NCBI RefSeq assembly: GCF_012927305.1
Contig: NZ_JABBGH010000001.1
Coordinates: 2,356,001-2,420,000, forward strand
Direction of reading: 5' to 3'
DNA from: Hymenobacter polaris
GTDB lineage: Bacteria; Bacteroidota; Bacteroidia; Cytophagales; Hymenobacteraceae
Length of the DNA stretch: 64,000 nt
Part shown: one piece after another, positions 9,599 to 57,806 of the stretch
Layout of the letters: the number at the start of each line of letters is the position of its first letter
Position numbering within the stretch: position 1 is the stretch's first letter
Notes under the pieces: generated by a model
The model's database searches: none
Seen by the model: the letters and a program-made list of their open reading frames with translations, nothing else
What the model was told of the DNA's origin: nothing
Position numbers and translations under genes: made by a program

Positions 9599-9608
9599 AA
9601 GCACAACA

Positions 9609-9707
9609 AGGCGGTCATGCTGAGCCTGCCGAAGCATCTCTACCGCTTCGTTGCAACGATTCAGGCGATGCGGTAGAGATGCTTCGACAAGCTCAGCATG
9701 ACCGCCC
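9609..9707. repeat. Family A inverted repeat
   Basis: GGTCATGCTGAGCCTGCC and its near-perfect complement flank GAAGCATCTCTACCGC. It sits between convergent genes and ends 12 bp from the bcp stop codon. Confidence 0.9.
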
Positions 9708-9718
9708 TTTTGGCGTTC

Positions 9719-10168
9719 TCACTTCAACACCTGAGCAGCGTGCTCCTTGGTATCGGGGCGCTTGATGACCTTCTCAATCAGGCCGTTGGCGTCGAGGAGG
9801 AAGGTGGTGCGCACGGTGCCCCAGTAGGTTTTGCCGTAGTTCTTTTTCTCCTGCCACACGCCGTAGGCCTCCACGATGCGTTTGTCGGCATCGGCCACGA
9901 GCGAGAAATTCAGGTCGTACTTGGTGGCGAACTTCTGGTGCGAGGCCACGTCATCGGTGCTCACGCCCACCACTTTCACGCCTTGGGCGGCCAGCTGGCT
10001 TTCGTTGTCGCGCAGGTTGCAGGCCTGGGCGGTGCAGCCGGGCGTGTCGTCTTTGGGGTAGAAGTAGAGCGCCACCCGCTGGCCGCGCAGGCTGCTCAGG
10101 GTGAACGGGTTGCCGTACTGGTCGGGCGCGGTGAAGTCGGGGGCGATAGTGCCGGGTTCGGGAAGCAT
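9719..10168 (-). CDS. bcp: Thioredoxin-dependent peroxiredoxin, Bcp/PrxQ type
   Basis: A 149-residue peroxiredoxin. DTPGCTAQACN near residues 44-54 carries the peroxidatic Cys and, five residues on, the resolving Cys, the arrangement typical of BCP. FYPKD before it and the TFLLD strand near the C-terminus complete the thioredoxin fold. It reduces hydroperoxides in the cytoplasm using thioredoxin. It appears to be a single-gene unit, with an AT-rich hairpin between it and the M23 peptidase gene. Confidence 0.92.
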   Translation of the reverse strand: MLPEPGTIAPDFTAPDQYGNPFTLSSLRGQRVALYFYPKDDTPGCTAQACNLRDNESQLAAQGVKVVGVSTDDVASHQKFATKYDLNFSLVADADKRIVEAYGVWQEKKNYGKTYWGTVRTTFLLDANGLIEKVIKRPDTKEHAAQVLK

Positions 10169-15014: not shown

Positions 15015-15020
15015 GGTAAC

Positions 15021-15130
15021 GAGCAGCAAAAGGTGGTCATGCTGAGCTTGTCGAAGCATCTCTACCGCACAACCTAGGCGGCCCAGTAGAGATGCTTCGA
15101 CAAGCTCAGCATGACCACCTTTTGCTGCTC
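15021..15130. repeat. Family A inverted repeat with extended arms
   Basis: GAGCAGCAAAAGGTGGTCAT and onward pairs with the reverse complement ending at 15130. Arms are about 48 bp and the loop contains CCTAGG. It lies between convergent genes. Confidence 0.9.
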
Positions 15131-15142
15131 GCTAGCCACCAA

Positions 15143-16292: not shown

Positions 16293-16388
16293 CGGCTGTC
16301 ATTGCGAGCTTGCGCAGCAATCGCACCAGCACGATGGCCCTAGGGGTCGCGCTGGTGCGATTGCTGCGCAAGCTCGCAATGACAGCCG
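16293..16388. repeat. Family B inverted repeat (TCATTGCGAGC)
   Basis: CGGCTGTCATTGCGAGCTTG and its complement form arms of about 40 bp. GCAGCAATCGCACCAGC lies at the inner end and the loop contains CCTAGG. It is the only copy of this type seen in the window. Confidence 0.88.
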
Positions 16389-17429: not shown

Positions 17430-17604
17430 ATGTGCGGATGGGGAAATAGGTGGATGTAGAAAATGGAAATAGGCGGTCATGCTGAGCGCAGCCGAAGCAT
17501 CTCTACCGAACGATACCCGAACGATGCGGTAGAGATGCTTCGACAAGCTCAGCATGACCGCCTTCTTTCAATTTTTACATCTACCTATTTCCCTATCCGC
17601 ACAT
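17430..17604. repeat. Composite long inverted repeat: family A core with AT-rich outer arms
   Basis: The inner 17470-17562 is a normal family A hairpin. The flanks also pair: ATGTGCGGATGGGGAAATAG on the left matches the complement of CTATTTCCCTATCCGCACAT on the right. The whole 175-nt element is one nested palindrome with arms near 80 bp. Confidence 0.85.
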
Positions 17605-23375: not shown

Positions 23376-23400
23376 GGCTCTCAGCCGAAGAAAAAGAGAA

Positions 23401-23500
23401 CGTCATGCTGAGCTTGCCGAAGCATCTCTACCACGTAAGTAATTCTAAACACTAGGATTACTTGCGCGGTAGAGATGCTTCGGCAAGCTCAGCATGACGT
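23401..23500. repeat. Family A inverted repeat
   Basis: CGTCATGCTGAGCTTGCCGA and its complement, with an inner AAGTAAT/ATTACTT pair. It lies between two plus-strand genes. Confidence 0.9.
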
Positions 23501-23528
23501 GCTGTTTTAAGCATTTACCCTAACAATC

Positions 23529-32200: not shown

Positions 32201-32212
32201 TGCGGGCGTTCG

Positions 32213-32258
32213 CCCCCCCCCGGCCCCCTCTCCCCAGGGAGAGGGGGCCGGGGGGGGG
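32213..32258. repeat. Family G GC-rich palindrome, short copy
   Basis: CCCCCCCCGGCCCCCTCTCC and its complement, with no central spacer segment. It lies between the antiporter and ureC stop codons. Confidence 0.85.
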
Positions 32259-35358: not shown

Positions 35359-35925
35359 ATGTCTGCTTCGCTGCTTGCCTGCCTGCGCGCGTTTGGCCCC
35401 ATTCCGCTGGCCGACGAGGCCCCGCTGCTGGCCGCCTGGCACCCGCGCCCGGCCGGCGAGGGCGAGTGGCTGACGGCCCCCAATACCGTATGCGAGGAAC
35501 TGTTTTTCGTGGTGCAAGGGGTATTGCGCATCACCGACGGCACGGGCCCGCGCGAAACCACGCACGCATTTCGCACCCAGGGCCAGCTATGCACGCTGCT
35601 GGCCAGCTTCGAGCGGCAGGAGCCCAGCCCGTTGCGCATCCAGGCCGCGTGCCCGGCGCAGGTGCTGGCCATCAGCCACGCCCGGCTAGCGGCGCTTAGC
35701 CAGCAGTTGCCCTACCTGCCCGCGCTGCTGCAGCGCCTCATCCAGCACGAACTGCTGGCGAAGCTGACCTTGCAGCGCGCCTACCTCGGCCAAGATGCTG
35801 CCGCCCGTTACCGCACTCTGCTGGCGCGGCAGCCCGAAGTGGCTCGGCAGGTACCCCAGCGCATGTTGGCCTCCTACCTGGGCATCACCCCGCAGTCGTT
35901 GAGCCGGTTGCGGCGGGCGGGGTAG
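35359..35925 (+). CDS. Crp/Fnr-family transcriptional regulator
   Basis: 188 residues. The N-terminal about 110 residues form a cyclic-nucleotide-binding-like barrel ([13 protein letters not shown]). The C-terminal end has a short DNA-binding helix ([19 protein letters not shown]), typical of the compact Crp-like regulators common in Bacteroidota. The effector is unknown, and residues for cAMP binding are not evident. It is divergent from the urease genes with a 127-bp gap, so control of urease is a reasonable inference. Confidence 0.8.
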
Positions 35926-36032
35926 CCCCACCCCCAGCCCCTCCCCTGCGGGGGAGGGGAGCCTGACGCTAGCGACCGCAAGGCTTGTGCCGCGGCTCCC
36001 CTGCCCCACAGGGGAGGGGCCGGGGGTGGGGC
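35925..36032. repeat. Family G GC-rich inverted repeat
   Basis: GCCCCACCCCCAGCCCCTCC pairs with the complement ending at 36032, around a 40-nt spacer. It starts on the last base of the Crp-type regulator gene. Confidence 0.9.
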
Positions 36033-37280: not shown

Positions 37281-39872
37281 CTACAGCGTCAGCACCTGCG
37301 TGCTTTCCTCGCCGAACTGGCTGATGACGCGCACCGCCACCCGCCGGCCCGGCCGCGCCTCGATGGGGTGCGACTGGAAGCCGTAGAGCCGCTCCCAGGC
37401 GTCCTCGTCCAGCTCGATGCGCAGGGTTTGCTCGGCCCGCTGCTTGGCCGAGGCGCTGGCTTGTAAGTCGAGCTTCTGGCGCCACTTGCGAAACTCGCTT
37501 TTTTCGCCGCCGCAGAAAAACACCTGCCGCACCAGAAAATTCGAGCCGTCGTAGTCGTCGTCGAGCATCCAGTAGGCGATGTCCTCCACCGAGCGGGCCG
37601 CCAGCCGGTTGTTGATGGGGTCCCAGATGTCGAGGCCGCGCACTTCCACGGTGGCCGAGCCGGTGGCCGCGTCGCGCAGCAGCCCGATTTCCGGCTCGCC
37701 GATGGTCACGAAGGAGGCCGCTTTTTTGTCTTTTTTCAGCAGGCCCTCTTGCAGCAAGTCTTCGCCGATGCGGGCGCGCGTCACCTGGAAGGTGCCGGCG
37801 CTGGTAGTTTGGGCGCGGTTCTCGATGGCGTCGTCGAAGGCGAAACCCAGCACCACCAGCCAGTCGGCGTCGCCGAGCTGGCGGCACTCCTTCACGGCGT
37901 CGTTGACCTGGCTCTTGCTCACGGTGCCGAAGCGCGGGCCCAGCAGGAAGTAGGCCTTGCGCTCGCGGCCGTCGGCGTCGCGCCAGTAGCCCTCGGCGGG
38001 CAGGGCGGGCGAGGCGCGGCGCTCGACGCGCAGAAACACGGCCTGCTCGTTCTTGGCCCCGTTGCGGATGCCCGAGGCGGTGAGGCCGGCAAACACCCGC
38101 GCCTCAAACTGGGCATGGCTCTCTAGCTCTTGCTTAGGGGCTTCCAGCTCCTCGGGCGGAACGGGGTTGAGGCTTTGCAGCGTCTCGACGGTGAAGGGGC
38201 CGGCCACGCGCAGGCGCTTCTTGTCTTCCTCGGGCTGGTCGTAGAGCTTCTCGGTGGCCGGCGGCTCGTCGTTGGCCAGGCTCTTAAGGGTGATGTGCGG
38301 CACCTCCCGGTACACGAAGCCCTGGCGCAAATCCTGGCTGGCCTCGTCGTAGAGCCGGTAGTAGGGGAAGCTGGCCGTCATCAGCCGCGTCTTGGCAATG
38401 TTAAGGGCGATGCGCGAGGTGTCCATCGTAATCCAGCGCCGCCCCCACTGCTCGGCCACGTAGGCCGTGGTGCCCGAGCCGCAGGTAGGGTCCAGCACCA
38501 GGTCGCCGGGGTCGGTGGTCATTAGGATGCAGCGCTGGATGACCTTTTGGGTAGTTTGGACTACGTAGCGTTTATCCTCGCCGCCCCCGCTGGCAGTATC
38601 ATCCCATAAATCTGCAATGGGCATTAAAGGAAAATCATCCAGGTAACGCACCAGATTTATCGAGTTTCCTTGCGCCATCAAACGCTTCTTGCGAACTAGG
38701 TTCGGCAAGCCTTTATCGGGCGATGTGCTCCAAAACCGGGAGCCGGGTCCATACAGCTTACCCTCAAACTCGAACAAGTCTTTTCCTTTTGAATAACCTT
38801 TTTCAGAGGTGAGGATAACGGGTCTAAAGAGCTTGCCGGCTATGCTGCCAGGGTCATTGTACTCTTCTTTAGTAAGCCGCCGCCGTCCCTGCTCGGTCTC
38901 AACAAAGCTGTACTGAGCTAATATTTCCCGGTTAATCTCCCGGTCTTTGTAAATAGGTCGAAACTTTATTGCGTCCCTGCTTTTGGCATACCAAACCAAA
39001 TAATCCGAGATGCCAGCCAGCAATTCGGCGCTCCGGGCCGAAGTCTTTTTTACGGTTATAAGGCTGACAAAATTCGAGCTGCCAAAAATCTCGTCCATCA
39101 GGCTCCTGACCAAGTGCACGTTCTCATCGGAAATCTGCACGAAGCACGACCCCGATTCCGTCAATAATTCGCGGGCTACCAGCAGGCGGTCGCGCAGGTA
39201 GCTGAGGTAGCTGTGGATGCCTAGCTCCCAGGTGTCGCGGAAGGCTTTGATTTGCTCGGGCTCGGAGGAGAGGTGCTCGTCCTTGCCATCCTGCACGGTG
39301 CGGTTGTTGAGCTTGATTTGCCAGTTCGAGCCGTATTTGATGCCGTAGGGCGGGTCGAGGTATACCATCTGCACCTTTTGGCCCAGGCCTTCGCGCTCGA
39401 GCAGCGAAGTCATCACGGCCAGCGAGTCGCCCAGGATAAGGTGGTTTTCCCAGGCGGCGTGGTGCTGGTAGTAGCTCAGGGGCTTATCCAGCTCGTCCAC
39501 AGTCTGGTAGTCCTGGCCAAAGAGGCCGAGCTGGGCATTGGCCTCGGCCAGGCGCTCGCGGTAGAGGCGCGCCATCAGCTCCTGGGGCCGAATGTGCTCG
39601 TGGCGGTAGAGCGAGCGGATGTCGAGCCGCAGGTAGTCGGGCTGGTGGTCACCCTCGTGGGCGTACTTGCCCAGCCACTGCAATTCGGGGTCCTGGCCGC
39701 GGTGCACGATGGGGTTCTTGTCCAGCTCGCGCAGAGTGTGGGCCTGCACCTTCGGGTTGAGCTGCTCGGCCCCGGCCTCGGTTCCGGCCGGGATGTAGGG
39801 GCGCCGGTCCTGGTGGGTATAGGCGGCCGGGTCGGCAGTGGCTGGAGTGGGTGGGATAGGTTTTTTGGGCAT
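37281..39872 (-). CDS. mod: Type III-like DNA methyltransferase (Mod)
   Basis: 863 residues. [17 protein letters not shown] near 172 is catalytic motif IV and [18 protein letters not shown] near 458 is the AdoMet site, the beta-class order of Type III Mod. The target-recognition region lies between them. Residues about 235-427 (38590-39170) are coded by DNA near 48% GC in lines I counted, against about 67% outside, as if exchanged. A C-terminal about 330-residue domain ([36 protein letters not shown]) exceeds the usual Mod length and I do not recognise it. It would methylate adenine on host DNA and pair with Res upstream. Res precedes Mod here, the reverse of the common order. Confidence 0.88.
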
Positions 39873-39888
39873 AATTGGGCCTCACCCC

Positions 39889-39997
39889 CCGGCCCCCTCT
39901 CCTTCAGAGATGGGGAGCCACGGCGGCGCGGATAAGAGTTGAAATTGTAATCGTCAGGCTCCCCCTCTCTGAAGGAGAGGGGGTCGGGGGGTGAGGC
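39889..39997. repeat. Family G inverted repeat between res and mod
   Basis: GCCTCACCCCCCGGCCCCCT pairs with the complement ending at 39997. The central spacer contains TAAGAGTTGAAATTG. It occupies the short gap between the two restriction genes. Confidence 0.9.
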
Positions 39998-40004
39998 CAC
40001 TCAG

Positions 40005-43000
40005 CTATAGCTCTTGAATCTTCGCTACCAGCTGGTTGCGGAAGTACTTCTCGCTTTCGCTGATTTCGACAAAGGCCCAGGGCTCGTCGGGGGGCAGGCC
40101 TAGGGCGGCCAGGTCGCCGTTGACGGCGGGCAGCCAGAAGTGCTCGGTGTAGAGCTTCTTGGCTTGCTTGTCCTTGTTCATGCCCGTGACCTCGATTAGG
40201 AGGTTCACTACCTGGCCGCGGGCGGTGCGCACGCGGGCCACGAAATCGGGCAGGTAGTCGTGCCGGCGGCCCTCGCGCAGGTAGGGGATGCGCAGGTCCA
40301 GGAAGGCGTTCTTGACGTAGCTCAGCACCTGGGGCAGGTCTTCGAGCACCTTGGCGCAGACTTGCTCCCAGCTCTCGGTATCGGCCACCACGTAGTTGAT
40401 GGGGCTTTTGGTGGTGGCAAATACCGGCCGGGTGGTGAGGCCGTGCACGAAGCGGGTGCTGCCGCGCGGGTTGTAGTAGTTGGGCACCGGCCGGATGCGG
40501 CGCTGCTCGGGGGGCTGCCCCACCACGATGGCCTGGGCAATGTGGTGGGCCACGGCCTCGGGGTCCCAGTAGCGCACGAGGCGCTTGAAGGCGGGGTCGG
40601 TTTGGTGCACCAGCGTCAGGCACTGCTGGTACCAGCCCTGCACGATGCGCTGCACCGGCCCGAAGTACTCGGGCTTGGGCGTGCCGTCCACGTCGGCGAA
40701 GTGGTGGCGCAGCACCTCGCGGGTGAGGTAGTACAGCACCTCGCCCTCGCGCAGTTGCTCGTGGGCCTGCAAGGTCAGGTTTTCGGTGCTACCCGAGAAG
40801 GCCGAGGCCAGCTCGGTGTGGGTCGGGATTTTCGAGAAATCCAGCTCGAACTTGCCTACCGCCGCGAAGTCGGGGCGCAGCTCGCCCGCGGCGATTTCCT
40901 CGCGGTAGCCCAGCAGGTTGGGGAAGGTGATTTCCAGGTGGCTGCGCTCGGGCAGGGCCCGGACGAGCGTCTGCTCCTCGCCGCCGGCGCCGCCCGTGCT
41001 GGCCGCGCCCCGCCGGAAGGTGCGAAACGGGATGCCAATGATGCGGGCGTACTCGGGCGGAAACTTGTAGCTCACGATGCGAGCCTTATCGGCTTTGGTA
41101 GTGCCCGTTACGGGCTGGCCCTGCCGGTCGTAGCCCACCAGCTCGTAGCCGCGGCGGCGCAGGGCGCGGCCGGCTACCTGCTCGCACAGTAGCTGCGAGT
41201 TGAAGGCGCGCAGGCTCACGATGTGCGTCACGGTGTTGGCGTCCCAGCCCTCGGTGAGCATGCTTACGCTCACCACGCAGCGCACGTGGGCGCCCAGCTT
41301 GCCGGGGCGGCCCACGGTGTTCACTACCTCGCGCAGCAGGGCGGCGTCGGTCAGCTCCTCGGCGCCGCGCTCGGGGTAGAGGCGGCGGTACTCCTGCCGG
41401 AACTGCTCAATCTCGTCCTTGAAAACCTTGCGAAACTCCTCGTTCACCTGCCCGCTATTTTCGAGCGCGTCGGAGTCGATGAGTAGCGTGGGCGGGCGCT
41501 GCCTAGGGATGCCGTCGGGCAGGTAGTTGGAGAAGATGGGGTGGTAGCCGGGGGCCACCCGGCGGCCGTGCCTGGGGTCGTCGTACTCGTAGCCGGCCAG
41601 GTGCTTGTACACTTCCTTCGACACGCCGGTGTTGTTGCACACCACGATGAGTACGGGCGGGGTGCTTTGCAGCTCGGGGCGGCGCTCGCCGCGCTCGCGC
41701 ACGCCCTGGTCGTACTCCTCGTAGTGCGCCACCAGCTGGTCGAGGGCGGCCGCGAGCAGCTGGGGCAGCTCGGGCCGCTTCTCGGCGTAGGCGGCGCCTT
41801 TTTCCTTGCGCTCGGTGGCCTTGCCCATCTTGGGCAGCTGGTCCTTCACGTGCTCGTAGAGGTTGCGCAGCACCGGCATGTCCAGCTGCTGGGTGTCGTC
41901 CTTCTCGGGCAGGTAGGGGATTTTCACCAGCCCGCTCTCGATGGCCTCCACCAGCCCGAAATCCGACACCAGCCACGGAAACAGCGTGTAGGGCCGGTAG
42001 CCCGAGCCTTGCAGGTAGTAGGGCGTGGCCGACAAGTCGTACACCGCCGCAAGCTGAAACCGCCGCCCCAGCTCGCGCAAGCCGCTGAACCACACCGCGG
42101 CGCGGGCGTTTTCGTCGACCCCACCCCCCGCCCCCTCCCCTGCGGGGGAGGGGGAGCCGGACGATTGTTTACGGCCACGCCGCCGTGGCTCCCCCTCTCC
42201 CGCAGGGGAGGGGGCCGGCCCCATAGGGGTCCCGTGGGGCTGCGGCAGGTAGCAGTGGTGGGCCTCGTCGTTGAGCACCAGCAGGCGGCTGCCGGGCCGG
42301 AAGCCCCCTAGCAGGCGCTTGAATACCTGAGCGTAGTCCTCGTACTCGTCTTGCTTCTTGCCATCCAGGCCAATTTTGCCGTCGAAGGCGCCGCGCTTGT
42401 TGCCTTGCAGGGTGCGGGGCTCAAACTGGTGGTAGTTGGCAATGGCCAGCCGGGCGTTGAGGCCTTCGAGCTGGTCTTCGTAGGCCAGGGGCACGAGCTT
42501 GCGCTGGTGGTAGTAGTCCTGGGCGTAGTTGCGGTCGGCGGTGGTGTCCACGCGCAGCACACCCAGGCGGTCGCGGATGGTGATGCCAGGCGCCACCAGC
42601 AGGAAATAGTCGGCAAAGCGCACATCCTGCCGGTACTGCTGGCGGTTGAGGTAGTGGTAGAGGATGAGGGCGGCCATGACCACCGTTTTGCCGGTGCCAG
42701 TGGCCATCTTGAACGCCAGGCGCGGCAGCTGGTCGGCTACCTGCGCCGATACCGACTGCTGCCCCGCGCGCAACAGCCCCAGCAAGTGACTGCCCGCGTT
42801 GGAGCGCCCGGCTACCTCGTTCAGCCACACGGCGGTTTCGATGGCCTCGCGCTGGGCAAAGAACAGCTTCTTCACCGGCGAGTCGTCGTGGTCGGGAAAC
42901 CAGTAAGTGAGCAGCTCGCGGGTTACGCGCGTGGCCTCGGGGTAGCCGGCGGCGCGCCACTGGCCCACCTCGCGCCGCAGCAGGTTTACCGGGTGGGTGC

Positions 43001-43232
43001 CGTAGCTGGCGGCCGCCTCATTGAAGGCGAACACCTCCTTCTGGCCCTGGTGCTTGCCGGGCACCACCTGCACCTCGGGCACGAACAGCCGCCGGCCGGC
43101 TTCCACACGGGCGTAGTCGAGGTTGCCCTGCTGGTCGGTGGCGTAGTGCCCGGCCGGCTCCTGGTAGGGGTTGTTGAGGATGGGGTTGTCGGGCAGCCGG
43201 GTGGGAGCGGCTTCATCGGCGGGGCCAAGCAT
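40005..43232 (-). CDS. res: Type III-like restriction endonuclease subunit (Res), DEAD/DEAH helicase
   Basis: I chose ATG 43232 (MLGPADEAAPTRLP), giving 1075 residues; a TTG seven codons upstream would lie inside the operator palindrome. FKMATGTGKTVVMAALI near 175 is motif I and LLVLNDEAHHCYL near 318 is motif II. TEGWDANTVTHIVSLRAF and CEQVAGRALRRRGYE are motifs V and VI. A 104-bp palindromic repeat is inserted in frame right after motif II (about residues 337-371). The C-terminal nuclease region has YLPDFVARV near 990 and LLIEVTG near 1013, with Thr where ExK would put Lys. It translocates on and cuts unmethylated DNA together with Mod. Confidence 0.85.
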   Translation of the reverse strand: MLGPADEAAPTRLPDNPILNNPYQEPAGHYATDQQGNLDYARVEAGRRLFVPEVQVVPGKHQGQKEVFAFNEAAASYGTHPVNLLRREVGQWRAAGYPEATRVTRELLTYWFPDHDDSPVKKLFFAQREAIETAVWLNEVAGRSNAGSHLLGLLRAGQQSVSAQVADQLPRLAFKMATGTGKTVVMAALILYHYLNRQQYRQDVRFADYFLLVAPGITIRDRLGVLRVDTTADRNYAQDYYHQRKLVPLAYEDQLEGLNARLAIANYHQFEPRTLQGNKRGAFDGKIGLDGKKQDEYEDYAQVFKRLLGGFRPGSRLLVLNDEAHHCYLPQPHGTPMGPAPSPAGEGEPRRRGRKQSSGSPSPAGEGAGGGVDENARAAVWFSGLRELGRRFQLAAVYDLSATPYYLQGSGYRPYTLFPWLVSDFGLVEAIESGLVKIPYLPEKDDTQQLDMPVLRNLYEHVKDQLPKMGKATERKEKGAAYAEKRPELPQLLAAALDQLVAHYEEYDQGVRERGERRPELQSTPPVLIVVCNNTGVSKEVYKHLAGYEYDDPRHGRRVAPGYHPIFSNYLPDGIPRQRPPTLLIDSDALENSGQVNEEFRKVFKDEIEQFRQEYRRLYPERGAEELTDAALLREVVNTVGRPGKLGAHVRCVVSVSMLTEGWDANTVTHIVSLRAFNSQLLCEQVAGRALRRRGYELVGYDRQGQPVTGTTKADKARIVSYKFPPEYARIIGIPFRTFRRGAASTGGAGGEEQTLVRALPERSHLEITFPNLLGYREEIAAGELRPDFAAVGKFELDFSKIPTHTELASAFSGSTENLTLQAHEQLREGEVLYYLTREVLRHHFADVDGTPKPEYFGPVQRIVQGWYQQCLTLVHQTDPAFKRLVRYWDPEAVAHHIAQAIVVGQPPEQRRIRPVPNYYNPRGSTRFVHGLTTRPVFATTKSPINYVVADTESWEQVCAKVLEDLPQVLSYVKNAFLDLRIPYLREGRRHDYLPDFVARVRTARGQVVNLLIEVTGMNKDKQAKKLYTEHFWLPAVNGDLAALGLPPDEPWAFVEISESEKYFRNQLVAKIQEL
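42119..42222. repeat. Family G palindrome inserted in frame inside res
   Basis: CCCCTCCCCTGCGGGGGAGG and its complement flank a short spacer within the Res reading frame. It adds about 35 Pro/Ser/Gly/Glu-rich residues (PAPSPAGEGEPRRRG...) between DEAH and DENARAAVW without breaking the frame. Confidence 0.88.
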
Positions 43233-43236
43233 GCAG

Positions 43237-43351
43237 TAGCGCTTATGAGACAAATATGATACATAAATGTATCATAAGCGCTACGAGCGAGTCACGAATA
43301 GCTCATAAATGAAAACTAGAGTGGGTCAGAATGAATCCAAATTTGTCTCAT
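43237..43351. promoter_or_regulatory. Nested operator-like palindromes between res and the HTH gene
   Basis: TAGCGCTTATGA (43237-43248) and TCATAAGCGCTA (43272-43283) are perfect 12-bp arms. Inside them ATGATACAT-AA-ATGTATCAT (43256-43275) is a perfect 9-bp palindrome. ATGAGACAAAT (43245-43255) recurs inverted as ATTTGTCTCAT (43341-43351), just upstream of the HTH gene. The sites cover both divergent promoters. Confidence 0.7.
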
Positions 43352-43367: not shown

Positions 43368-43730
43368 ATGACCAGGCAACACCGCGGCGAAATTGTGAAG
43401 GAGGCTGTGCTGAAAAGCGGCGTTAAAATCACCAAGCTCTACCAGTCGCTGGGCGTCAGTCGCCCCACTCTCTACCGCCGCTTCGAGGAGCCCAATCTGG
43501 CGTTCGACTTCATCGAGCAGGTCGGCACCCTCATCCGCCACGACTTCGCCCAGGACTTCCGCGAGCTGGTCCCGCCGGCAGCTACGGTAGCGGCCGTGGC
43601 CGAGCCGGCCCCCGCCTACCACCTCGACACCCTCGACGACTGCAAAAACAAGCTCCTGCACGTGTACGGCCTCTATACCGAGCTGCAAGAGAAGTACAAC
43701 GCCCTGCTGGCCGAGCGCGGCCGGGGGTAA
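43368..43730 (+). CDS. Small helix-turn-helix regulator of the restriction locus
   Basis: 120 residues. ITKLYQSLGVSRPTLYRRFE near residues 20-40 is a clear HTH. The C-terminal part (LDDCKNKLLHVYGLYTELQE) is a likely coiled-coil dimerisation helix. Size and position resemble controller proteins of restriction systems, though it is not a typical XRE-fold C protein. It is divergent from res and starts an operon with the HNH gene 16 bp downstream. Binding to the palindromes in front of it, and control of both arms, is inferred. Confidence 0.7.
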   Translation: MTRQHRGEIVKEAVLKSGVKITKLYQSLGVSRPTLYRRFEEPNLAFDFIEQVGTLIRHDFAQDFRELVPPAATVAAVAEPAPAYHLDTLDDCKNKLLHVYGLYTELQEKYNALLAERGRG

Positions 43731-43746: not shown

Positions 43747-44688
43747 ATGAACAACATTCAGTTTTACGTAGGCCTGACTGACCGGCGCTGGTATGATTTT
43801 CTGCGCCAGGAGCCACGTAGCGACGTTAATTTTTGGAAGCCATCGGCTAAAACATTCAAAGCGCTACCACCCAATGGCCCTTTTCTGTTTCTGCTAAAAA
43901 AGCCTGCGCACGCTATCGTAGGAATGGGCTACTTCGCTGGCAAGATGGCAGTGCCTTTGCGTGAGGCCTGGAACATCTTCGGGCCGCGCAACGGAGTGGG
44001 CAGCTATGAGGAATTTCACCGCCTCATTTATGGCAACCGCTATGGCCCTAGCACCGACAACGCTACTATTCTGTGCCTGACGCTCAATACACCCGTTTTT
44101 TTCGAACCGGCTGATTGGGTGCCCGCGCCTGCCGATTGGGGACACGGCATTGTGCAAGGCAAGCGGTTCAACACCGGTGAGCCAGCGGGCTTGCACTTGT
44201 GGCAGCGAGTAGACCAAGTGCTACAACAGTACCGGCCGGCCGCATTATCGTCGGAACCGGTAGTTTCTGACCTGGTACTGGAGCCGGTTGTAAGCTACCG
44301 CACAGCGTTGCGGCAGGTGCGACCTGAACAACGGGCGTTCCAAGAAATCGTGAAGCAGGCCTACGATAGCAAGTGTGCAATTTCAGGTGAGAAGACCGTG
44401 CCTGTGCTCGAAGCCGCTCACATCAAGCCGTATGCCGAGGCTGGTCCTAGCATCGTCAGCAACGGTCTACTGTTGCGCTCCGACCTGCACCGCCTTTTCG
44501 ACCGGCATTACCTCACCATCAACGCGGACAGCTTACGAGTAGAGGTTAGCAAGCGCATCAAGGAAGAGTTTTCAAACGGTGTTGCTTACTACCAATACGA
44601 TGGCCAAAAGCTGCGCCTTCCACATGAACGCCTAGAGCGCCCTGCCCAGCAGTTTCTACGGCTGCACAACGAACGATATAAGGGATAA
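43747..44688 (+). CDS. HNH endonuclease with N-terminal EVE/PUA-like domain
   Basis: 313 residues. The first about 130 (FYVGLTDRRWYDFLR, NFWKPS, FLFLLKKPAHAIVGMGYF) resemble the PUA/EVE-like module fused to nucleases in predicted Type IV restriction proteins, which may read modified bases. The C-terminal HNH has CAISGEKTVPVLEAAHIKPY and NGLLLRSDLHRLFDRHYLTI, with the catalytic His in AAHI. DNA composition is lower in GC than neighbouring housekeeping genes. It would cut incoming modified DNA and complement the Type III-like pair. Confidence 0.8.
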   Translation: MNNIQFYVGLTDRRWYDFLRQEPRSDVNFWKPSAKTFKALPPNGPFLFLLKKPAHAIVGMGYFAGKMAVPLREAWNIFGPRNGVGSYEEFHRLIYGNRYGPSTDNATILCLTLNTPVFFEPADWVPAPADWGHGIVQGKRFNTGEPAGLHLWQRVDQVLQQYRPAALSSEPVVSDLVLEPVVSYRTALRQVRPEQRAFQEIVKQAYDSKCAISGEKTVPVLEAAHIKPYAEAGPSIVSNGLLLRSDLHRLFDRHYLTINADSLRVEVSKRIKEEFSNGVAYYQYDGQKLRLPHERLERPAQQFLRLHNERYKG

Positions 44689-45292: not shown

Positions 45293-45311
45293 GAAACGCG
45301 AAAAAACAACA

Positions 45312-45400
45312 GAACGTCAGGCTGAGCTTGTCGAAGCATCTCTACTGCACCGCTAGGGTGTCATTCGATAGAGATGCTTTGACAAGCTTAGATGACGTTC
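45312..45400. repeat. Family A inverted repeat, degenerate copy
   Basis: GAACGTCAGGCTGAGCTTGT pairs with GACAAGCTTAGATGACGTTC; a GC deletion and several mismatches mark decay. Confidence 0.8.
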
Positions 45401-45921: not shown

Positions 45922-46082
45922 TACCTCCCCCCCAGCCCCCGGTTCGCTTGAGGCGCGAAGCCTTGGGGAGAGGGAGGGGGAGCCACAACGGCGCGTCTGT
46001 CTGCTGACGTTTAGTAATCGGTAGGCTCCCCCTCTCCCCAAGGCTTCGCGCCTCAAGCGAACCGGGGGCTGGGGGGTGAGGT
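45922..46082. repeat. Family G inverted repeat with long arms
   Basis: ACCTCCCCCCCAGCCCCCGG at the left pairs with the complement ending at 46082. Arms of about 60 bp include TTCGCTTGAGGCGCGAAGCC and enclose a 40-nt spacer. Confidence 0.9.
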
Positions 46083-55073: not shown

Positions 55074-55112
55074 TTTAAGTAGTTTCTATGTTTAAAAGAA
55101 CGTCGGTTAGTT

Positions 55113-55208
55113 AGAACGTCATGCTGAGCTTGTCGAAGCATCTCTACCACGCCGCCTAGGGCGGCGTCGTTCTGCCAAGATGCTTCGGCAAGCTCAGCAT
55201 GACGTTCT
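55113..55208. repeat. Family A inverted repeat
   Basis: GAACGTCATGCTGAGCTTGT and complement; the two inner halves differ (ATCTCTACC against CCAAGATGC), so the copy is mosaic. The loop contains CCTAGG. Its end reaches the stop codon of the small membrane gene. Confidence 0.88.
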
Positions 55209-55473
55209 ACTTGGCGTTGTTATCTAATTCCTGTTTTCTACCGAAGAAAAAAGAAGCAAAGAATAACACTGTGAGAATGCCGATTGCGTAATTGACTCTC
55301 ACAGCGTCTCGCTTAGCTAAATTCTCTTGCTCTATCGCTTCTTGCGGGTTTTGATTATGTATTTCGTAAGTAGTGGTTAAAACACTCATATCCTTCTCAT
55401 ACGCAGCGACGCTAATCCTAGAAACGAGGGCGCATAGAATCAATAAAAACAAAATCACTCTAACTGCTTTCAC
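55207..55473 (-). CDS. Hypothetical two-pass membrane protein, 88 residues
   Basis: VRVILFLLILCALVSRISVA is one hydrophobic segment and VNYAIGILTVLFFASFFFG the other, with a polar loop of about 40 residues between. No known family. The gene is AT-rich and sits inside the arg operon between argD and argC, 25 bp from argC. This looks like an insertion. Confidence 0.55.
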   Translation of the reverse strand: MKAVRVILFLLILCALVSRISVAAYEKDMSVLTTTYEIHNQNPQEAIEQENLAKRDAVRVNYAIGILTVLFFASFFFGRKQELDNNAK

Positions 55474-56485: not shown

Positions 56486-56492
56486 AGGGTGC

Positions 56493-56626
56493 AGCCCCAC
56501 CCCCCGGCCCCCTCCCCTGCGGGGGAGGGGGAGCCGAGGCAGCGCAGGCGGTTGCGCATAAATGCAGTGCTAAAAAATCGTCAGGCTCCCCCTCCCCCGC
56601 AGGGGAGGGGGCCGGGGGGTGGGGCT
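56493..56626. repeat. Family G inverted repeat between argC and argG
   Basis: AGCCCCACCCCCCGGCCCCC pairs with the complement ending at 56626, around a 40-nt spacer. The right end overlaps the argG stop codon. Confidence 0.92.
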
Positions 56627-57806
56627 ACTCCAGCGAAGCGTGAATCTTCAACTGATTCCCAAAGATTTTAATAAACCCACGCGCATCGCGCGAATCCCAG
56701 GCGTTGTTCTCCTCGCCGTAGGTGGCCACCTTCGATTGCATCATGTCGTACTTCGACTCGATGCCGAGCAACTCGAAATGGTAGGGGCGCAGCTCTACGA
56801 ACACCGTGCCCGATACACGGGCCTGCGACGACACCAGGAAGGCTTCGAAGTCGCGCATCACCGGGTCGAGGTACTGGGCCTCGTGCAGCAGCGTGCCGTA
56901 CCAGGTGGCTACCGGCTCCTTGTGCAGCTGCTGCCAGCGCGAGAGGGTGTGCTTTTCGAGCAGGTGGTGCGCCTTGATGAGCAGCAGCGCCGCCGGAGCC
57001 TCGAAGCCCACGCGGCCCTTGATGCCCAGGATGGTGTCGCCCACGTGCGTATCGCGGCCGATGGCGTAGGCGCCGCCCAGCTCATTGAGCTGTTGAATGA
57101 GGGCTACCGCGCCCATCTTCTCGCCGTTCAGGGCCACCGGCTCGCCGTGCTCGAAGTTGATTTCCAGCTGGCTCGGCTCGGTTTGGGAGAGCTGGGTGGG
57201 GTAGGCGCTCTCGGGCAGGGCCTGGCGCGAGGTCAGCGTTTCGACGCCGCCCACACTGGTGCCCCAGATGCCGCGGTTGATGGAGTACTTAGCCTTCTCC
57301 CAGCTCATCTCGAAGCCCTGGCTTTGCAGGTACTCGATTTCCTGCTGGCGCGAGAGCTTCTGGTCGCGGATGGGGGTAATTATCTCTACCTCAGGCGCAA
57401 TTACGGCGAAGGCCACGTCGAAGCGCACCTGGTCGTTGCCGGCGCCGGTGCTGCCGTGCACGATGTAGTCGGCCTGCTCCTGGCGGGCGTACTCGGCGAT
57501 GGCCAGGGCCTGGAACATGCGTTCGGCGCTCACGCTCAGCGGGTAAGTGTCATTTTTGAGCACGTTGCCGAACAGCAGGTAGCGCAGGCAGTCGTGGTAG
57601 TAGCGCTCGGTAATGTCGATGACCTCGTGCTTGGTCGAGCCTAGCTCGTAGGCCCGCTTCTCGATGGCCTTTAATTCCTCTGCCGAGAAGCCGCCCGAGT
57701 TCACGATAACGGTGTGGATTTCCCAGCCTTCTTCGCGGGTGAGGTTTACTACGCAGTACGACGTGTCGAGGCCGCCGCTGTACGCTACAATCGCCTTTTT
57801 CTTCAT
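56625..57806 (-). CDS. argG: Argininosuccinate synthase
   Basis: 393 residues. AYSGGLDTSYCV near residue 8 is the ATP pyrophosphatase loop (SGGxDxS), and HGSTGAGNDQVRFDVAF and NRGIWGTSVGG are conserved substrate segments. It joins citrulline and aspartate with ATP. CCCCCTAGA abuts the ATG. The stop codon lies in the end of a family G repeat. Its 5' neighbour is the arginine GNAT, and both likely share a leader. Confidence 0.96.
   Translation of the reverse strand: MKKKAIVAYSGGLDTSYCVVNLTREEGWEIHTVIVNSGGFSAEELKAIEKRAYELGSTKHEVIDITERYYHDCLRYLLFGNVLKNDTYPLSVSAERMFQALAIAEYARQEQADYIVHGSTGAGNDQVRFDVAFAVIAPEVEIITPIRDQKLSRQQEIEYLQSQGFEMSWEKAKYSINRGIWGTSVGGVETLTSRQALPESAYPTQLSQTEPSQLEINFEHGEPVALNGEKMGAVALIQQLNELGGAYAIGRDTHVGDTILGIKGRVGFEAPAALLLIKAHHLLEKHTLSRWQQLHKEPVATWYGTLLHEAQYLDPVMRDFEAFLVSSQARVSGTVFVELRPYHFELLGIESKYDMMQSKVATYGEENNAWDSRDARGFIKIFGNQLKIHASLE

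Follow-up and report, generated by a model that had tools for sequence, protein, structure and literature searches.

A palindromic element translated within res

The res gene of Hymenobacter polaris hosts, just after the DEAH motif, a palindromic DNA element of 121 bp which is read in frame. The gene lies in a stretch of 64,000 nucleotides (assembly GCF_012927305.1, contig NZ_JABBGH010000001.1, positions 2,356,001 to 2,420,000), hereafter called the window, to which the coordinates below refer. Elements of the same type are dispersed in the genome and in the genus, and genes encoding the nuclease domain DUF559 are found between the same arms. The res segment is probably (about 0.7) a non-autonomous copy of a palindrome-ended mobile element, the autonomous form of which would host the DUF559 gene between its two arms. 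The features of immediate concern are the following (L and G numbers here and below denote loci and genomes of the comparison).

40005..43253, minus strand: res, type III-like restriction helicase/nuclease subunit, BPTD_3080 family, 1082 aa, intact open reading frame (ORF)
42119..42239, minus strand: palindromic element in res, encoding Res residues 339-378 (PHGTPMGPAPSPAGEGEPRRRGRKQSSGSPSPAGEGAGGG) and the first base of the V379 codon
42130..42153: first hairpin arm, CCCCCTCCCC TGCG GGGGAGGGG type, its inner end with a CGTC-type tag (CGTCCGGCTCC on the minus strand)
42191..42213: second hairpin arm, with an inner end of the GCCGCCGTGGCTCC type

The palindrome is confirmed as real and is far beyond chance. 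The two hairpin arms are about 37 nt apart. On the minus strand the element starts after CAG, with CCCCACGGGACCCC, and ends in GGGGTGGGG, which is followed by TCGACGAA; the outer end CCCCAC...GTGGGG extends to the CAG codon of Q338. The segment named by the initial annotation is real, but had been taken to end at 42222. Forty residues are encoded, and the Res ORF runs through the palindrome without a stop. Open frames are not above chance (2.31 of 6, compared with 2.63 in dinucleotide shuffles), and the notion that the element is built to be coding was rejected, as its composition gives as many. Searches for a known RNA family gave nothing but hairpin matches below threshold, which were put down to chance.

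In Res orthologues the motif DEAHHCYLPQ/K is followed by a hypervariable linker, about 11-16 residues long. In the sister gene L012, 89% identical, the linker is VVGKKPRASAGDEASP, spans 16 residues and includes no element. In the window Res, 40 residues encoded by the element, plus V, stand in place of a native linker of this type; since the latter was replaced, the net gain is 25 aa, and the event is not a clean insertion. An initial estimate of about 35 residues added without breaking the frame was thus right as to the frame and too high as to the size. The sister gene and all other orthologues but one are empty. In H. rubidus (L015/L043) a single arm (SSGSPLHGRGAGGEV) is found in the same Res linker, flanked by remnants of the native one. 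In a tree calculated leaving the linker out, the window Res pairs with the element-free L012 (support 100/100), and H. rubidus L015 with the element-free L017 (support 100/99). Each element-bearing gene being sister to an empty one, two independent events took place. Absence from close relatives and independent insertion in the same linker are shown by these data. The same segment was not seen in homologues from unrelated genera, a finding that would have refuted the initial reading; a Bacteroidia relative (L046) and a divergent Res clade (L020-L024) are without it.

The whole protein scores 956 bits against the BPTD_3080 family restriction endonuclease model (NF046055), above the curated cut-off of 800. 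The ratio of nonsynonymous to synonymous substitution rates between the window and L012 genes, linker excluded and averaged over both branches, is 0.147, so that outside the linker the pair has been under purifying selection. The structure model of Res is poor (AlphaFold mean predicted local distance difference test score, pLDDT, 45), and a search of the PDB gave no relative for the linker region; from its length variability, the loop may be exposed. The neighbouring gene encodes a type III-like methyltransferase.

37281..39872, minus strand: mod, partner methyltransferase of res (N6_N4_Mtase; PADLOC MTase_III)

On the other side, an HNH endonuclease gene (43747-44688), with weak, below-cut-off likeness to phosphorothioate-DNA restriction enzymes, sits behind a small ORF resembling helix-turn-helix proteins (43368-43730).

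Repeats of the same type in the genome and in the genus

The genome was surveyed by similarity and pattern searches, and by inspection of fetched stretches. Across the 5.59 Mb of the genome there are 82 occurrences of the hairpin-arm pattern and none of the reversed pattern used as control, and the res element has 73 significant matches in its own genome. In the regions fetched, 41 two-arm copies were found, with spacers mostly of 30-57 nt. The majority are intergenic, and at least four lie within conserved genes. Read from the inside to the outside, the arm consensus is (CGTC)AGGCTCCCCCTCTCC-CGGA-GGGGAGGGGGCCGGGGGGTGGGG, and the opposite arm usually begins with GCCGCCGTGGCTCC; the pair has a polarity, because the inner ends of the two arms differ. 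CGTC is found at one fixed inner offset in 20 of the 82 arms, and the other arm type is without it. The pattern is present in 116/120 genomes of the genus, with up to 171 occurrences and control counts of zero. No copies were found on plasmids by DNA similarity. Additional copies in the window are:

39878..39998: second element copy, between res and mod, two arms
35925..36031: third two-arm copy, no long ORF across it, outer limits approximate
56488..56631: fourth two-arm copy, arms 96% complementary, no long ORF across it
32212..32252: single-arm copy

The repeat had been described at first as intergenic elsewhere. This holds for most copies, but the genome also has in-frame ones, in genes for a Pnkp-type polynucleotide kinase-phosphatase-ligase (L062), PBP1C (L067) and a family 2 glycosyltransferase (L055). 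Res, Pnkp and PBP1C use different reading frames of the element. Relatives feature in-frame copies in the interdomain linkers of methylmalonyl-CoA mutase (L035) and of MetH (L115 and L116; L121 is empty). The PBP1C loop is a hot spot, occupied by two-arm elements in this genome (G000) and in G001, G003, G004, G007, G011, G022, G026, G035, G051, G054, G065, G087, G091 and G098, and by decayed copies in others. The same loop is filled by an unrelated repeat encoding NEELKIKN...NSSFLIFNS (L275, L283, L284, L286, L304, L305), in species where it is without the C/T-rich element. The occurrence of different palindrome families in one loop points to tolerance, and the loops hosting the element look permissive rather than functional.

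Other repeats were noticed in passing. Five identical hairpin arms (CCCCTCTCCTTTTCCGGAGAGGGG) are arranged in tandem, at an exact spacing of 63 nt, at G003:C2:193946-194221. Another palindromic family (GGTAGAGATGCTTCGACAAGCTCAGCATGACC), more numerous than that of the res element, occurs mostly as inverted pairs, in the window at 9600-9728, 15017-15141, 17430-17604, 23388-23508, 45302-45387, 55104-55229 and other positions. An inverted repeat with 47-nt arms, 100% complementary and 55 nt apart, is located at the start of an acetyltransferase-like ORF (45928-46076), and long palindromes are found at 16293-16388 (TGTCATTGCGAGC type, 98%) and 1388-1486 (TTTTCACCGCAGAAGGCGC type, 96%).

DUF559 genes between the arms

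Inspection of the copies in this genome revealed that PurQ is joined by one arm to a DUF559 domain. The arms of this PurQ-DUF559 unit match those of the copy at 39878-39998 at 47/49 and 50/55 bases, the differing inner ends included. The short copy has both terminal arms, with their inner and outer ends, in common with the DUF559-bearing one, as expected if the nuclease element lost its interior. By this likeness, the short repeats look like internal-deletion derivatives of the DUF559 element.

DUF559 (PF04480) is present in 103/120 genomes of the genus. Loci were sampled as best-scoring hits, or, for plasmids, as a hand-picked spread of hits. At the sampled genus loci the arm motif lies within 200 nt of DUF559 on both sides in 28/30 cases and on at least one side in all 30, and in distal windows of the same loci only once (1/30). 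In a looser test, which accepted any C/T-rich stem of 7 or more within 250 nt on either side, hairpins were found at 30/30 loci of the genus, 21/24 of Bacteroidota and 12/14 on plasmids of Cyanobacteria, Alphaproteobacteria, Gammaproteobacteria and Deinococcus; distal control windows gave one positive in each set. None of 26 Y1_Tnp loci had arms or C/T-rich hairpins, and none of 27 HNH loci had such hairpins, out to 450 nt. Genomes with DUF559 have more arms (median 30) than those without (12; p = 0.012, in a test that ignores phylogeny). In Sinorhizobium meliloti pSymB (L254) a DUF559 gene lies between near-identical inverted repeats of about 114 nt.

The fold of DUF559 is close to that of a known homing endonuclease, by both structure and profile match. 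For the model (L084, m34af97764998; pLDDT 79), structural matches are 3hrl (E 1e-7) and the homing endonuclease I-Bth0305I (E 3e-5), with a weak one to Vsr (E 0.02); profile searches returned 3hrl (3e-35) and 3r3p (4e-6). Invariant residues include D62, E73, G76 and H79, and are compatible with a predicted active PD-(D/E)XK/EDxHD site. DUF559 has been placed in the EDxHD homing family (PMC9403480), and the Caulobacter DUF559 protein VsrA has been described as a Vsr-like repair endonuclease (PMC12907096). Further matches of the model are many mitoribosomal proteins from Toxoplasma and Tetrahymena, perhaps RAP-type domains.

Nuclease elements in frame in host proteins

AddA-like (L117-L120) and AddB-like ORFs (L124, L128) contain DUF559 together with both arms. 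In RecQ ORFs (L126-L132) DUF559 is at the start, in MetH and PurQ ORFs at the end, and here an arm marks the junction. The surroundings of the gene showed neither intron nor intein; the nuclease is just one domain of the host protein. In a single genus the AddA linker is found in three states: with the nuclease element, with the short element (two arms in G112, a decayed one in G057), and empty. The AddA genes of G109 and G030, 96% identical upstream, differ by an insert of 200 residues, which in G109 starts with CCTCACCCCCC and ends with GGGGGGTGAGG. A native linker of 9 residues is gone, and no target-site duplication is visible at this one pair. Identity of the arms, their position around DUF559, and the presence of both forms in frame in permissive linkers are shown as well. 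The DUF559 tree groups by host site (10 changes, 27.6 in shuffles), and AddA and AddB copies are intermixed, as expected if copies persist at a site, or home to it, and jump now and then.

How the element may spread

DUF559, having the fold of homing and Vsr-like EDxHD endonucleases, may cleave either the target linker or the hairpin arms. Repair of the break would copy the element in, and could replace native linker sequence; short copies would be moved in trans. Copies inserted out of frame in genes would be lost. What lets in-frame copies survive would be the tolerance of certain linkers, among them the PBP1C loop, the AddA linker and the Res loop that follows DEAH. We infer that DUF559 drives the spread of the repeats, that break repair accounts for linker replacement and that the Res insert is neutral; the element in Res is most likely an inert spacer peptide. 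Tentatively, the scheme may be extended to view DUF559 proteins as nucleases dedicated to mobilising C/T-rich palindromes of a class found across bacteria. The two would form a palindrome-enzyme pair alongside REP-RAYT (see below), spreading by homing-like break repair, residing in frame within host proteins with no splicing, and shedding short in-frame derivatives like that in res.

Several points weigh against this scheme. No movement of repeats has been observed, and DUF559 may simply be carried along. Plain insertion does not explain why the native linker is replaced and not split. Top-scoring DUF559 loci partly share ancestry (16/47 are at PurQ), and the flanking fractions are hence not independent trials. 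The correlation of arm counts with DUF559 is a weak point as it takes no account of phylogeny. Some genomes lacking DUF559 are nonetheless arm-rich (95 arms in G039, 89 in G070, 62 in G103), and in these the enzyme was lost later or is not needed.

Alternatively, the hairpins may be transcription terminators or mRNA-stabilising stems, bounding by chance an ordinary repair nuclease gene. Intergenic C/T-rich hairpins are indeed common, and a repair role is what was reported for Caulobacter VsrA. We regard this as unlikely, because arms are translated within the AddA, AddB, RecQ, MetH and Res ORFs, the inverted repeats flanking DUF559 go well beyond a hairpin, up to the near-identical ones of the Sinorhizobium plasmid, and HNH and Y1_Tnp genes lack such hairpins.

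It is rather improbable that the repeats are REPs (repetitive extragenic palindromes) moved by an IS200/IS605-type Y1 transposase (RAYT) or by another transposase, with DUF559 as a passenger. REPs are elsewhere tied to RAYTs (PMC6006769, PMC8266576), and 83/120 genomes of the genus have a Y1_Tnp gene. This genome, however, has no Y1_Tnp match, yet has its 82 arms, and the 26 Y1_Tnp loci lack the arms and feature inverted repeats of their own, of a different type. A RAYT was rejected as mobiliser on these grounds. The lack of a target-site duplication at the AddA pair also speaks against this reading; of the transposase families, Y1_Tnp was the one surveyed.

The Res insert could also be adaptive, tuning the helicase or hosting an interaction: it adjoins motif II, and insertions occurred in parallel at the same linker. 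The linker is however hypervariable and dispensable in length among orthologues, and different palindrome families share the PBP1C loop, so that this is held to be very unlikely. Growth of the linker by chance, through GC-rich low-complexity expansion or polymerase slippage with no insertion, would suit a hypervariable linker and a low-complexity segment, but is refuted by the dispersed two-arm structure with characteristic inner and outer ends and by the genomic matches, and is barely conceivable.

Relation to known repeats

Both Rickettsia and, with their REPs, other bacteria are known to have palindromes within coding genes (PMC10969869, PMC3733652), and the res insert alone is consequently not new in kind. 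The initial annotation had compared it to Rickettsia palindromic elements. The analogy stands in kind, as dispersed palindromes lie in frame in tolerant linkers of unrelated genes and are absent from most orthologues. It fails in that the element is not a Rickettsia-type ORF: it is read in several frames, encodes no conserved peptide, has an openness explained by composition, and exists in a nuclease-bearing form. In-frame palindromes, of which the same annotation knew no description for this group, are not special to Rickettsia, as they have been described among the GTAG- and CGTC-tagged REPs of many bacteria (Di Nocera et al. 2013, PMC3733652).

Like those REPs, the elements are short hairpin units, found in inverted pairs, mostly intergenic and at times intragenic, often in DNA repair genes (PMC3733652). 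As to the CGTC tag, 20 of the 82 arms have it at one fixed inner position, and the other arm type lacks it. CGTC REPs, which seem to be without a dedicated transposase, have a stem of 8-9 bp from a complementary AT, a loop of 4-5 and a CCA-like tail (PMC3733652). The consensus found here, AGGCTCCCCCTCTCC...GGGGGCCGGGGGGTGGGG, does not fit, and the other arm type ends in GCCGCCGTGG; strict assignment to CGTC REPs was rejected because stem and tail differ. RAYT/TnpA-REP systems similarly pair a small nuclease-type gene, located between palindromes it may move, with many short non-autonomous copies. No HUH Y1 transposase flanked by the repeats was found; the enzyme is here a PD-(D/E)XK/EDxHD-type DUF559, often fused in frame to hosts. 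Fold, sequence and site-wise persistence of the copies recall Vsr and EDxHD homing endonucleases such as I-Bth0305I, from which the elements differ as no intron or intein was seen at DUF559. They differ from classical DDE-type miniature inverted-repeat transposable elements since no target-site duplication is visible in the single AddA pair.

In the openly accessible literature no relevant paper joining DUF559 to palindromes was found, and a nuclease partner of in-frame palindromes appears to be new. The literature names no dedicated enzyme for the spread of CGTC-type and similar palindromes, copies in coding genes included (PMC3733652). DUF559, a nuclease family of unsettled role located between palindromes in several phyla, is a testable candidate mobiliser. 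If this is true, the DUF559 tails and inserts found on AddA, AddB, RecQ, MetH and PurQ would be residues of mobile elements and not host domains, and the same would apply to proline/glycine-rich inserts in many annotated proteins of the group.
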